Assembly: GCF_040024445.1 (NCBI RefSeq)
Contig: NZ_CP157276.1
Location: 1,302,001 to 1,366,000, forward strand
Length of the DNA stretch: 64,000 nucleotides
Source of the DNA: Prescottella soli
GTDB lineage: Bacteria; Actinomycetota; Actinomycetes; Mycobacteriales; Mycobacteriaceae
Direction of reading: 5' to 3'
Made by a program: the position numbers and the translations under genes. Below are positions 43,854 to 47,670 of this stretch, one piece after another; the stretch's first letter is position 1; each line of letters begins with the position of its first letter. The notes under the pieces are model-generated. The model was given only the letters and a program-made list of their open reading frames with translations. It was not told the DNA's origin and did not search any database.

Positions 43854-44522
43854 TCAGTTCGCGTTCGCGCCCCGCGTGCCGACGAGGTCGGCGAACACGA
43901 CGGTGTTGTCGCGGTAGCTGCGCGCGGCGGTGTCGAACTCGCCTCCGCAGGTGATCAGTCGCAGCCCGGGGTGGTCGATGTCGCCATAGACCTTGGCGGT
44001 CGGGAATGCATCCTTCGCATAGCGTTCCACGCTCGCCACCCGGAACACCTCGGTGAGGCCGTCAGTGCGGTCGGCATAGATCTCGTCGCCCGGCGCCAGT
44101 TCGTGGAGTCGGAAGAACACGCCGGGCTTGCCGCCCCAGTCGACGTGGCCGGCGATCACCGCCGGTCCGAGTTCCCCGGGAACCGGTGAGCCGGAATACC
44201 ATCCGGCGGGAAAGCCGCTCGGCGGCACCTCGAGCGCCCCGCTCGCGTCGAGTCCGAGGTTCATCAGGTCGGAGTCGACATCGATGGCCGGGATCGACAG
44301 GCGGACCGGACGAGTAGCCGCGATCGACCCGGGGGCGGTGCCGGTGTCGACTACCGGTCCGGGCGCCTGCTGCACGACGTTCGGCTGCGGCGGCCCCTCG
44401 GTGTCGCTTGTGGTGCAACCACTCAATGCCGCAACGAACAGCGCGCAGGCGGCCAGGCCCGCCGACAGGCCGCTGCCGGACGAGCGCCGGCAGCGGCCTG
44501 TCGATGTAATGCTCATCGGCAT
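43854..44522 (-). CDS. Lipoprotein-anchored class E/F-type sortase
   Basis: A 222-residue sortase-family transpeptidase. The N-terminus is a lipoprotein signal with lipobox 'ALSGC' (Cys36) rather than the usual membrane anchor. The catalytic His126 is in 'AVIAGHVDW', Cys192 in 'LRLITCGGEFD', and the likely catalytic Arg204 in 'ARSYRDNTV'. Sortases of this type cleave a sorting signal and attach proteins to the envelope. It begins 9 bp after the stop of the repeat protein gene on the same strand, so that protein is the obvious candidate substrate. A 17-bp hairpin covers codons 7-20. Confidence 0.88.
   Translation of the reverse strand: MPMSITSTGRCRRSSGSGLSAGLAACALFVAALSGCTTSDTEGPPQPNVVQQAPGPVVDTGTAPGSIAATRPVRLSIPAIDVDSDLMNLGLDASGALEVPPSGFPAGWYSGSPVPGELGPAVIAGHVDWGGKPGVFFRLHELAPGDEIYADRTDGLTEVFRVASVERYAKDAFPTAKVYGDIDHPGLRLITCGGEFDTAARSYRDNTVVFADLVGTRGANAN
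44463..44503 (-). promoter_or_regulatory. Strong hairpin within the sortase 5' coding region
   Basis: CGACAGGCCGCTGCCGG (44463-44479) pairs perfectly with 44487-44503, loop of 7 bases. In the leftward mRNA it starts 19 bases inside the sortase ORF and 28 bases after the repeat-gene stop. It could attenuate transcription or translation of the sortase relative to the repeat protein. It is not followed by U-residues. Confidence 0.75.
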
Positions 44523-44531
44523 GTTCGGATC

Positions 44532-47126
44532 TTAGGACTTGCGGCGATTCCGCATGGTCGCTACGGACCCGCCACTTGCGAGGGCCGCCAGAAGCAATGC
44601 CGTGCCCACCAGCACGCCACGGTTCGAGGAGTCGTCGGCAATGCCCTTGTCGCCGGCCTCGACGCCGCCCACGGGCACCGCGGTGATCTGGCCACCGGCT
44701 CGGGCGGCGCTCACCTCGGCGGTGCGGGTCTGAGCACTGACATCGTGTGCAACAACGGCATTCACGGCGACCGGAAGAGCAACGTTGGCCGCACCGTTCG
44801 CGCCGACACCGGCCTGGCTGCCGAGCGCCACGCCGCCGGCGATCGCACTGCCGAGCGCGGCACTGCCGAGCACCGCGCTGCCGAGATCCACACCGGCCCC
44901 GCCGCCACCCGCGCTGCCAGTGTCGCCCGAGCTACCGGGAACGGTCGCGCTGCCGGAGCCACCGGACCCGTGGTTGCCGGCACTGCCGGTGTCTGCTCCA
45001 CCAGCGCTGCCGGTATCCGTTCCACCCGTGCTGCCGAGCCCCGCCGCACTACCGGCAAAGGGAAGCGCGAGGCTGCCGAGCGGAAGCGCCAGGCTACCCA
45101 GGGCCAACTCACCCAGGCTGCCCAGATCCCCCGCGCTCCCCGCGTCCCCGGCGCTGCCGGTCGGAAGGTCACCGAGGCTCCCGGCACCTCCGGTGCTCCC
45201 GGTCAGCAGGTCACCGAGGCTGCCGGTATCCACGCCACCCGTGCTGCCCAGACCCAAGCTGCCGAGCGCCAGATCCTTCAGGCTCCCCAGATCCAGACCG
45301 GCACTACCCGAATCACCGGACGAACCGGCACCGAGATCGCCACTGCCACTGCTGCCCGCACCGGCACTACCGGTGTCGACACCACCCGCACTGCCCGTGT
45401 CACCGGTGCTCCCCAGCGCGCCGGCGCTTCCCAACACCGGCAACGCCAGGCTGCCGAACGGAAGCGCCAGGCTGCCCAGGGCCAACTCACCCAAGCTGCC
45501 GAGATCCCCCGCGCTCCCCGTGTCCCCGGCGCTGCCGGTTGGCAGATCACCGAGGCTGCCGGTGTTCGCGCCACCCGTGCTGCCCAGGCCCAGGCTGCCG
45601 AGCGCCAGATCCTTCAGGCTCCCCAGATCGACGCCGGCACTACCGGTGTCGACACCACCCGCACTGCCCGTGTCACCGGTGCTCCCCAGCGCGCCGACGC
45701 TTCCCAACACCGGCAACGCGAGGCTGCCGAACGGAAGCGCCAGGCTACCCAGAGCCAACTGCCCCAGGCTGCCCAGATCCCCCGCGCTCCCCGTGTCCCC
45801 GGCGCTGCCGGTCGGAAGGTTACCGAGGCTGCCCGTGTCGCCGGCGCTTCCCGTCGGCAGGTCACCCAGGCTGCCCGTGTCTCCAGCACTTCCCGTCGCC
45901 AGGTCACGGAGGCTGCCGGTATCCACGCCACCCGTGCTGCCCAGCCCCAGGCTGCCCAGCGCCAGATCCTTCAGGCTCCCCAGATCCAGACCGGCACTAC
46001 CGGTGTCGACACCACCCGCACTACCCGAATCACCGGCGCTACCCAGCGCGCCGGCACTTCCCGACACCGGCAACGCCAGGCTGCCGAACGGAAGCGCCAG
46101 GCTACCCAGAGCCAACTCACCCAGGCTGCCCAGATCCACCCCGGCACCACTGGCACTGCCGGACTCGACACTGCCCGGATCCACGCTGCCGGTGTCCCCC
46201 GAGCTACCCCCGACGAGGTCGCCCAGACTGCCGGCCCCGAGGTCGGCCAGGCTGCCGAGATCCAGTCCTGTGCTGCCAGTGCCGCTGCCGGTGCCGCTGC
46301 CCGAATCGGAGCTTCCGCCGCCGAGTCCGAGGCTCCCGAGCGCGAGCTCCGACAGGCTCCCCAGGTCGAGACCGGCATTGCCGGTGCTGCCCAGTGCAAG
46401 TTGGGTGAGCGCGTCCAGGCTGCCGCCCGCCGTACTCCCAGTGTCACCGGCGCTGCCGGAGCCGAGATCGGCCAGGCTGCCGAGATCGAGTTCTGCGCTG
46501 CCGCTCTGGACACTGCCACTGCCGGTGCTGCCGCTTCCGATCGCGCCGATGCTGCCGGTATCGGCCTGGCCCGCGCTACCCGCCGCGAGCCCGCCGAGGA
46601 CGTCGAGTCCCAGTTGCAGGCTGCCGGAGCTGCCGGTGTCGGCACCGCTACCGGTTCCTCCGGTGCTGCCGCCACCCGCATTCCCGAGGCTGCCGAGCGC
46701 GAGATCCGCAGCGGCCTGCTCGATGCTTCCGGTGTTCAGCTCACCGCCGCCGGCGCTGCCGGTGTCGAGCCCACCGCCGACGAGGCTTCCGGCGCCGATG
46801 TTTCCGAGACTGCCGAGTGCGGCTTGGGCAAGATTCGCCAGATCGAGGTTGCCCGCGCTTCCCGCGTTGATGCCACCGTTCGCACCGCCGGGACCCGCCG
46901 CGCTCCCGAGGCCGGCGTCGCCGTTGCCCCCGATGCTGCTTCCGAGACCCGAGAGTCCGCCGCCGGCACCACCGTTCGCACTGCTACCGATCCCGCCTGC
47001 CGGCACCGGCGCAGCGTGACCGATGGCCGGAGTGGCAATCGTCAATGCGCCCACCGCAGTGGCGGCAACCATGATGCGACTCTTCATCTTTCGCGTTCGG
47101 ACGTTCTCGGCCCTGTGGGTAGACAT
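44532..47126 (-). CDS. Gly-Ser repeat surface protein
   Basis: An 864-residue exported protein. Signal peptide: residues about 15-38 ('MKSRIMVAATAVGALTIATPAIGHA'-type, cut before APVPAGG). From about 44 to 740 it is made of Gly-Ser pairs every 5-7 residues (about one hundred GS dipeptides), with Leu, Ala, Asp and Thr between them ('GSLALPFGSLALPV', 'DTGSAG', 'DLGSLKDLALGSLGLGS'). Four long copies of about 70-125 residues are recognisable. The C-terminus has one membrane helix ('GVLVGTALLLAALASGG') and basic tail MRNRRKS, like a sortase substrate, but no LPXTG. ATG at 47126 follows GAGGAGG. The sortase gene follows at 9 bp. Confidence 0.88.
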   Translation of the reverse strand: MSTHRAENVRTRKMKSRIMVAATAVGALTIATPAIGHAAPVPAGGIGSSANGGAGGGLSGLGSSIGGNGDAGLGSAAGPGGANGGINAGSAGNLDLANLAQAALGSLGNIGAGSLVGGGLDTGSAGGGELNTGSIEQAAADLALGSLGNAGGGSTGGTGSGADTGSSGSLQLGLDVLGGLAAGSAGQADTGSIGAIGSGSTGSGSVQSGSAELDLGSLADLGSGSAGDTGSTAGGSLDALTQLALGSTGNAGLDLGSLSELALGSLGLGGGSSDSGSGTGSGTGSTGLDLGSLADLGAGSLGDLVGGSSGDTGSVDPGSVESGSASGAGVDLGSLGELALGSLALPFGSLALPVSGSAGALGSAGDSGSAGGVDTGSAGLDLGSLKDLALGSLGLGSTGGVDTGSLRDLATGSAGDTGSLGDLPTGSAGDTGSLGNLPTGSAGDTGSAGDLGSLGQLALGSLALPFGSLALPVLGSVGALGSTGDTGSAGGVDTGSAGVDLGSLKDLALGSLGLGSTGGANTGSLGDLPTGSAGDTGSAGDLGSLGELALGSLALPFGSLALPVLGSAGALGSTGDTGSAGGVDTGSAGAGSSGSGDLGAGSSGDSGSAGLDLGSLKDLALGSLGLGSTGGVDTGSLGDLLTGSTGGAGSLGDLPTGSAGDAGSAGDLGSLGELALGSLALPLGSLALPFAGSAAGLGSTGGTDTGSAGGADTGSAGNHGSGGSGSATVPGSSGDTGSAGGGGAGVDLGSAVLGSAALGSAIAGGVALGSQAGVGANGAANVALPVAVNAVVAHDVSAQTRTAEVSAARAGGQITAVPVGGVEAGDKGIADDSSNRGVLVGTALLLAALASGGSVATMRNRRKS
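44940..46150 (-). repeat. Long in-frame direct repeats in the surface protein gene
   Basis: Four direct copies of a unit beginning 'DLGSLGELALGSLALPFGSLALP' recur on the minus strand, starting near 46140, 45785, 45505 and 45130 and reading leftward. They vary in length from about 200 to 370 bp by gain or loss of short GS segments, and long stretches are nearly identical at DNA level. This invites slippage and recombination and also makes short-read assembly here uncertain. Confidence 0.8.
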
Positions 47127-47670
47127 CGTTCTTCGACCTCCTCGATCGGCGTGTCCAGATGCATATGTAGACATAGACAGCCCAGTCGCATGAAGACAGA
47201 AATGACGAAAAACGCCCCCCAAAAATCCGCCAGCCCCCGCTGAAACGGATAGCAATCCCCCCGGCCACATGCATACAGGCGCGATCAAGATAGCACCTCG
47301 CACCCCGATCGATCACCGATCTCGCTCGGCGATTTCCGCGAAACCCGTTCGCATGGTTGATCCATCGACCGCGCGGACCGGGCTGACCTGCGCCTTTCCT
47401 CGACAACGAACATTCGAACGATGCGCCCTCAGGCCCGTTTGTCCACCGCCTGTAACGCTCGCCCCATGGTCTCCGATTCGTCATGCAACCGAGATGTCTC
47501 AGTCCACGAAGGAGGATCCCTCACACCGGCCTCGCGCCATCGCCGACACCGTGCGCCGATCCCCAACCACCGGACCGGAATTCACTGCGCGAACCGCGCA
47601 CTCGAACCCTCGGACGAACGTCGGCTCCGCGCGCCGGGAGTCACCGCGTTCACCCGACTCCCGTTGCGGT
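47127..47670. other. Gene-free region upstream of the surface protein gene
   Basis: About 540 bp between the fadD19-like stop and the surface protein start. The 47150-47230 part is AT-richer, with TATG/ACATA-like elements suitable for a promoter. On the coding strand a T5 tract runs into a G6 tract (plus-strand CCCCCCAAAAA at 47215-47225) about 90 bp before the start codon. Frames crossing the rest have no ribosome site or recognisable product. No strong terminator for the fadD19-like gene was seen. Confidence 0.6.

Follow-up and report, generated by a model that had tools for sequence, protein, structure and literature searches.

A Gly-Ser repeat protein and its adjacent class F sortase in Prescottella soli as a putative sortase-substrate pair with a phylum-wide, non-LPXTG signal

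Several described sortase systems partly resemble a locus that we analyzed within a 64,000-nucleotide stretch of the Prescottella soli genome (hereafter the window). The LPXTG/class A system shares with it the enzyme fold, the His and Cys pair, and a tripartite C-terminal signal, but LPXTG is absent, on inspection of the sequence, from the C-terminal region of the window's candidate substrate (as a preliminary description of this DNA had noted), where a motif of eleven residues begins with Pro and has G-V in place of L-P. The class E sortase with LAXTG known from Streptomyces chaplins (accessible text of PMC5148588) is likewise an actinobacterial sortase with a non-LPXTG signal; in contrast, the window sortase reaches only 26.3 bits against the class E model NF033747 (cut-off 160), placing it outside that class, and class E neighbours lack the motif. 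In the same genus, the srt1 and srt2 islands of Rhodococcus (Prescottella) equi place sortases beside putative substrates, an adjacency repeated in the window, but the named substrate carries LPVTG, and outside these islands the accessible text reports no further proteins with a typical mark (LPXTG or a variant) save one serine peptidase (PMC2947987). The SrtF enzyme of Cutibacterium acnes is class F by name, like the window sortase, but differs in recognizing LPXTG (accessible text of PMC13257024 and PMC7913060), so that the signal does not follow from class membership by itself. In Actinoplanes missouriensis, four class F genes were deleted together with no phenotype, and the physiological roles of class F sortases were called unknown in 2026 (accessible text of PMC13251363).

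The tag of the window protein is already modelled at NCBI as NF058571 (GVDTG_CTERM, GVDTG sorting domain), which together with the class F model NF033748 agrees with the window in core, helix, and tail, whereas the window has GVEAG and a Lys at position 10. Because subscription journals and NCBIfam documentation lay outside the scope of our literature search, an earlier description of the signal may well exist; within that scope, no paper on the GVDTG_CTERM signal, and none joining DUF3494 with a sortase, was found. What is new here is the measured pairing, the variants missed by the model, and a set of neighbours, mostly beside lipoprotein sortases, in which no membrane helix follows the tag.

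The gene for the Gly-Ser (GS) repeat protein (44532..47126, minus strand) encodes an exported, putative sortase substrate of 864 aa with an ATG start, as read from the sequence and genus relatives, and is preceded by a ribosome-binding site, GAGGAGGT (47136..47143, minus strand), with a spacer of 9 bases. On the same strand follow a Sec-type signal peptide recognized by eye and conserved among 4 proteins (residues 1-38; 47013..47126), the GS-repeat region with tandem arrays at the DNA level (about residues 45-772; 44811..46994), the sorting signal PVGGVEAGDKG, placed by alignment and the NF058571 match (residues 818-828; 44643..44675), and, from sequence and genus alignment, a hydrophobic helix (about residues 838-857; 44556..44615) and the basic tail MRNRRKS (44535..44555), so that the protein ends in VPVGGVEAGDKG, a hydrophobic stretch, and the tail. 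GS dipeptides number 104, mostly spaced by 8, 6, 5, or 7 in the repeat region; 103 fall within residues 41-790, compared to a mean of 35 and a maximum of 51 when these residues were shuffled 1000 times. A fold model built from an alignment of 4 sequences was useless (mean pLDDT 35), and neither fibre nor disorder is therefore claimed from it; the fibrous envelope layer suggested in the preliminary description is thus unsupported. Pattern searches gave 0 promoters and 2 terminators, compared with 0.3 and 1.5 in shuffled sequence.

Only 9 bases separate the stop codon of this gene from the start of a class F sortase of lipoprotein type (222 aa; 43854..44522, minus strand), which scores 190.5 bits against NF033748 (cut-off 166) and also matches Pfam Sortase E (2.7e-22). 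It has the sortase fold with active-site His and Cys: the catalytic domain, a Pfam match, spans residues 75-214 (43881..44300), and the codons for His126 (44145..44147) and Cys192 in LITC (43947..43949), all on the minus strand, specify residues invariant in 42 aligned sequences. Its N-terminal membrane tether, judged by sequence only, would be the lipobox LSGC (residues 33-36; 44415..44426, minus strand), a label our script also gave to 11 genus relatives; Cys36 is identical in 8/8 aligned sequences, the window's own included. The preliminary description, which had reported an exported 864-residue protein with about one hundred GS dipeptides, a C-terminal helix with basic tail, and an adjoining lipobox-anchored sortase, was thus accurate in content and coordinates. 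The lipobox anchor that it reported is not unique but common in the class: by the same script rules, which we used for lipobox and helix labels in place of predictors, 109 class F loci comprise 45 with a lipobox, 59 with a helix, and 5 unclear.

At the position before strand beta8, Asn occurs in 162/171 class F sequences and Arg in 18/18 of class E; by our own reading of the strand these residues hold the same place, whereas MAFFT put them in different columns. Since this Asn is class-wide, it is no mark against class F membership of the window sortase, although it does weigh against the sortase-substrate reading given below. An Arg stands at Cys-4 in 156/171 class F sequences. A sequence profile search for solved relatives returned 3 PDB sequences (best 4d70, 3e-5), while phmmer with the single window sortase found none; among the fold matches listed, none is class F by name, which proves no absence; the Corynebacterium enzyme 5uus goes by the name SrtF.

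The NF058571 assignment itself is reached but marginal, as the C-terminal 67 aa alone scored 30.1 bits (30.3 in the genome search; cut-off 29) and the full-length protein gave no match to it at E 0.1. Full-length family scans reported no family, including the LPXTG model TIGR01167. The model also asks for a class F sortase in the genome, which here is the adjacent gene. Across 396 genomes, GVDTG_CTERM exceeded its cut-off in 29, all within the 73 class F genomes (among the matches listed; hypergeometric 2e-24), and 33/36 matches lay at most 3 kb from a class F sortase (among the matches listed). The argument from this profile runs one way, however, since 44/73 class F genomes (among the matches listed) had no GVDTG_CTERM at E 1e-5, with at most 17 candidates scored per genome, and only 3/14 genus genomes passed the cut-off. 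Likewise, when 149 related C-termini were scored against NF058571, 91 stayed below approximately the cut-off value, and E 0.01 was missed by 28.

A motif matrix for P-x-G-[GS]-V-[ED]-[TA]-G-x-G was trained leave-one-genus-out and read at a threshold of 12 bits. It was applied to 109 class F loci, of which 11 came from the genus, 38 from the family, and 60 from the phylum, the last hand-chosen among the matches listed; 8 of the 19 fetched genus regions (L041-L048) surround other genus sortases and stand outside the 109, and of 40 fetched family regions two class F-like ones (L117 and L118, 72 and 59 bits) were dropped and L116 (85 bits) kept. At 89/109 loci the best match of at least 12 bits was the adjacent same-strand ORF, a count not wholly independent of our eye because the training neighbours were picked by our own regular expression; two of these positives (L133 and L175) look spurious to us. 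ORFs of at least 12 bits made up 92/1412 near the sortases versus 12/4211 elsewhere, and 4 of these 12 (L079, L109, L127, L148) are really adjacent genes. The class E control, scored with the full matrix at 20 loci (17 above the class E cut-off), gave 1/941. Loci with no signal-bearing neighbour at 12 bits numbered 17/109 for class F and 5/80 for named loci (the best 80 of 298, partly overlapping the other genome set). A signal peculiar to the window pair was thus rejected: what the pair carries is the Prescottella form (GVEAG, with position 10 mostly K) of GVDTG_CTERM, a class F signal that extends across the phylum.

The GS repeat, in contrast, occurs almost only in the genus; in other lineages ice-binding-like or CHRD proteins bear the tag. 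Outside the genus, GS-rich neighbours (at least 5 GS per 100 aa) were 2/149, namely L083 (74 GS in 698 aa) and L228 (a 73-aa fragment), in a set that joins unnamed and named loci and counts some genomes twice, and the repeat was accordingly rejected as the defining partner. The preliminary description had proposed searching other genomes for the pair, aligning the residues before the helix, and counting sortase homologues without a GS-repeat neighbour against it; such homologues occur almost everywhere outside the genus. This touches only the GS part of the proposal, because the signal stays while the preceding domain changes.

Within Prescottella, a sortase orthologue and GS-protein relatives occur in 12/14 genomes, and the sorting signal in the same 12; the two others (G011 and G013) have no sortase match at all. 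The 12 C-termini are nearly invariant across the signal (alignment P31 to G38, with one near-invariant position) and variable in the preceding stretch. Class E sortases were matched in only 7/14 genomes and are therefore not the general partner of the signal; for the genomes without such a match, a class E partner was rejected. Comparison thus shows that signal and sortase are present together and missing together, that across the phylum the neighbours of class F sortases, unlike those of class E, bear the signal, and that the domain before it is exchangeable.

Taken together, the GS protein and the class F sortase very probably form a sortase-substrate unit, in which the protein would be exported, cleaved, and passed to a peptidoglycan precursor. 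As read from the sequence, the signal peptide would export the GS protein, and the C-terminal helix and basic tail would hold it in the membrane, where a sortase anchored externally through a lipid on Cys36 may recognize P-V-G-G-V-E-A-G. By analogy with LPXT|G, the cut would fall between Ala824 and Gly825, followed by an acyl-enzyme on Cys192 and transfer to the precursor, leaving the GS part as a wall-linked, probably flexible surface chain. The preliminary description's view of a dedicated pair with a non-canonical signal is supported as regards the pair and its non-LPXTG signal, but "dedicated" is too narrow, because a second, unlinked gene, located near 2.834 Mb in this genome, carries the same kind of C-terminal signal.

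Other readings have to be weighed against this sortase-substrate unit. The near-invariance of the signal next to a variable stretch, the joint absence of pair and signal in the genus, and the recurrence of the same signal in class F neighbours whose domains are unrelated make it quite unlikely that the GS protein remains anchored in the membrane through its C-terminal helix, or undergoes trimming by a different protease, while the sortase acts elsewhere, even if the lack of LPXTG and a GVEAG core that departs from it where L, P, and T would stand fit such a view. That a real signal is processed by another sortase appears very improbable. The window's genome does encode two further sortases (three in total), including another class F-like enzyme located at 5.34 Mb, and either this or a class E enzyme could be invoked; however, only a single sortase was matched in G009 (2 contigs, 100% complete, 2% contamination), which still has two signal-bearing proteins, one adjoining the sortase and the other about 3.6 Mb along the contig. 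Moreover, 5/12 pair genomes have no class E match (one of them, the incomplete G003, has fragments of a further sortase), the signal is missing at class E neighbours, and proteins beside the other genus sortases have LPVTG, IDSG, or IDGG-type ends.

We also consider it unlikely that the class F enzyme cuts the motif but delivers the product to, e.g., another protein or a lipid, as in a polymer or pilus-like assembly: a hydrophobic helix follows the signal in 75/92 neighbours, and a scan of six genes flanking the pair in the window showed none that is pilin-like. What speaks for such a non-textbook route are the remaining 17/92, helix-free neighbours that lie beside lipoprotein sortases at 15/17 and 17/20 such loci, and one of which (L155) is itself lipoprotein-like. 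In several lineages these proteins lack a hydrophobic tail and end 13-37 residues past the point where P-x-G-[GS]-V-[DE]-[TA]-G begins, at odds with the textbook route; L238 is labelled helix-free by the script, yet 51 residues separate its signal from the end of the protein. Collapsed by genus, lipoprotein versus other sortases gave 5 versus 1 helix-free and 11 versus 25 remaining cases, a weak association (Fisher p 0.023). One tentative reading, which we hold to be possible rather than probable, is that the class F signal needs no membrane helix and that the Prescottella pair, which combines a lipoprotein sortase and a helix-bearing substrate, is an intermediate; with the canonical Arg missing, class F could then represent a distinct attachment mode, possibly for soluble proteins.

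Actinobacteria encode many class F sortases, with five in S. coelicolor by published count (accessible text of PMC5148588) and, among the matches listed, 7 strong matches in each of two genomes of one family (G149 and G303, family f4). Substrates in the Actinoplanes study were picked, in its accessible text, by LPXTG, NPXTG, SPXTG, PPXTG, LPXTA, and LAXTG (PMC13251363), a set that would miss P-x-G-G-V-E/D-T/A-G, as would the usual LPXTG search. A signal with 149 example C-termini allows substrates to be named, peptide cleavage to be tested, and the question to be asked of which surface layer these enzymes build; if the helix-free substrates are real, they would also provide a sortase tag with possible use on soluble proteins.

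The GS-repeat protein gene (44532-47126, minus strand) and the class F lipoprotein sortase gene (43854-44522, minus strand) together form a sortase beside its substrate, a locus ordinary in kind. Within Prescottella, the former Rhodococcus equi group, a sortase orthologue was found in 12 of 14 genomes; all 12 carried the GS-repeat protein or its remains directly upstream, and the C-terminal signal was present in the same 12. G011 and G013 lack the signal, and three sortase searches gave no match in either genome. Both pair genes are broken in G003 (pair regions L031, L035, and L038 are truncated or masked). Class E matches occurred in 7 of the 14 genomes. For G009, a 100% complete assembly of two contigs, the class F sortase of the pair was the sole sortase match. 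A tandem copy in G001 (region L030) consists of an intact GS gene and a sortase remnant that covers only the first 39 residues, with a broken GS gene and an intact sortase downstream.

Elsewhere in the window genome, a single contig of 5.48 Mb, region L041 (G000:C1:5335000-5354000) encodes a class F-like sortase scoring 78.7 bits, below the cut-off, flanked on one side by a DUF7507/DUF11 repeat protein with IDSGLGAD preceding its helix and on the other by a DUF5979 protein with SLPVTGAN; a class E sortase lies ~6 kb away. The R. equi genome paper describes two sortase islands with putative substrates adjoining (PMC2947987).

The signal extends across the phylum at class F loci. We scored 109 class F regions (11 from the genus, 38 from the family, and 60 from the phylum) with an eleven-residue motif matrix trained without the genus under test, using a threshold of 12 bits. 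The best match reached this threshold in an adjacent same-strand ORF for 89 of the 109 regions, two of which (L133 and L175) were taken for spurious downstream frames. Overall, 92 of 1412 nearby ORFs scored ≥12 bits versus 12 of 4211 others, and four of these 12 (L079, L109, L127, and L148) are adjacent genes that were mislabelled because the frame assigned to the sortase extended too far. Among 941 ORFs from 20 class E control regions (17 over the class E cut-off), the sole match was taken for a spurious frame. When the full matrix was combined with a position rule, a signal neighbour was identified at 92 of 109 class F loci and at 75 of 80 named loci (the best 80 of 298), including Rhodococcus, Williamsia, Blastococcus, Modestobacter, Pseudonocardia, Lentzea, Micromonospora, Cryobacterium, Cellulomonas, and Streptomyces. 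Two loci in records titled Kitasatospora arboriphila (L222) and Proteobacteria bacterium (L220) resemble those of Williamsia and other actinobacteria, and these records are probably mislabelled or mixed genomes.

Across 149 distinct C-termini, the motif includes Pro (146), Gly at position 3 (142), Val at position 5 (115), Glu or Asp at position 6 (87), Thr (104) or Ala (44) at position 7, Gly at position 8 (149), and Gly at position 10 (136). The window form is P-V-G-G-V-E-A-G-D-K-G, and Lys at position 10 occurs in 8 of the 149, in loci of Prescottella. An NCBIfam model, NF058571 (GVDTG_CTERM, “GVDTG sorting domain”), exists, so that the signal is already on record in a database; no account of a GVDTG-type signal was found in the literature searched. 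The window C-terminus alone scored 30.1 bits against this model (cut-off 29), and a family scan of the full-length GS protein listed nothing at E 0.1. NF058571 exceeded its cut-off in 3 of 14 genus genomes and 29 of 396 phylum-wide genomes. Of the 149 C-termini, it matched 58 at roughly its cut-off, rising to 121 at E 0.01. Among the matches listed for the 396 genomes, all 29 belong to the set of 73 that carry a class F sortase, and 33 of 36 NF058571 matches have a listed class F sortase no more than 3 kb away. The converse fails, however, as 44 of these 73 genomes lack an NF058571 match at E 1e-5. The reading of the window locus as a class F/GVDTG-type pair is well supported.

The GS repeat, which the preliminary description had made part of a dedicated pair, is a local choice of cargo. 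Apart from one broken gene, the genus proteins have a GS density of 9.7 to 14.1 per 100 aa, against a median of 1.1 per 100 aa in 149 other neighbours. Valid Pfam scans of 19 neighbours from other genera yielded six ice-binding-like proteins (PF11999; L098, L163, L082, L186, L199, and L227) and three CHRD proteins (L107, L111, and L104), with no Pfam family over cut-off for the other 10. The domain preceding the signal is exchangeable. One class F neighbour from another genus (L083, genome G056) is GS-rich, with 74 GS in 698 aa and the signal PRGYPETGAGG, so a GS-rich cargo may have originated on two occasions. Within Prescottella, another type of GS-rich protein shares the ending of the window protein (as PMGGVEAGG, PVGSVEAGG, or PAGAVEAGG) and is encoded in G000, G001, G003, G007 (two), G009, and G012. 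Comparison with the positions of the sortase matches placed none nearby, indicating that the signal is also maintained in trans. In G000, this gene (G000:C1:2834156-2834338, L259:2651-3400, minus strand) lies ~1.49 Mb from the window pair and encodes 249 aa ending in QVAVVPMGGVEAGGG, a helix, and RHRRRA, with no sortase adjoining.

The sortase retains His126 and Cys192 in 42 of 42 aligned relatives. Directly before strand beta8, Asn was found in 162 of 171 class F sequences versus Arg in 18 of 18 class E sequences, and Arg occurs four residues before the Cys in 156 of 171 class F sequences; a published statement holds that all sortases have His-Cys-Arg. Published work calls the physiological roles of class F sortases unknown (PMC13251363) and describes LPXTG as the signal used by the studied C. 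acnes class F enzyme (PMC13257024, PMC7913060). By analogy with LPXT|G, cleavage of the GS protein would be expected between Ala824 and Gly825, because motif positions 5-8 (V-E-A-G) are in register with P-X-T-G. These positions read P-E-T-G in L083, L087, L100, and L113, and some neighbours, with VPRGYPETGAGG, seem intermediate between the LPETG and GVDTG types. The lipid anchor would keep the sortase on the outside of the membrane, where the substrate helix would hold the signal.

At 17 of 92 loci (20 of 75 named loci), no helix follows the signal. These exported neighbours end either 13–17 residues past the motif start (L079, L101-L103, L105, L106, L144, L148, L150, and L155) or 30–37 residues past it (L081, L082, L086, L088-L090, and L094, from one genus matching Williamsia), and comprise at least two protein kinds, one ice-binding-like and one group without a Pfam name. 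The adjoining sortases were labelled lipoproteins in 15 of 17 cases (17 of 20 in the named set), the remainder being helix-anchored (one, and two named) or unclear (one, and one named). Collapsed by genus, this link stands at 5 versus 1 (p 0.023), and thus needs more lineages. The surprise lies one step from the window pair, in a phylum-wide signal for which the literature searched yielded no paper, and in neighbours that carry this signal with no helix behind it.
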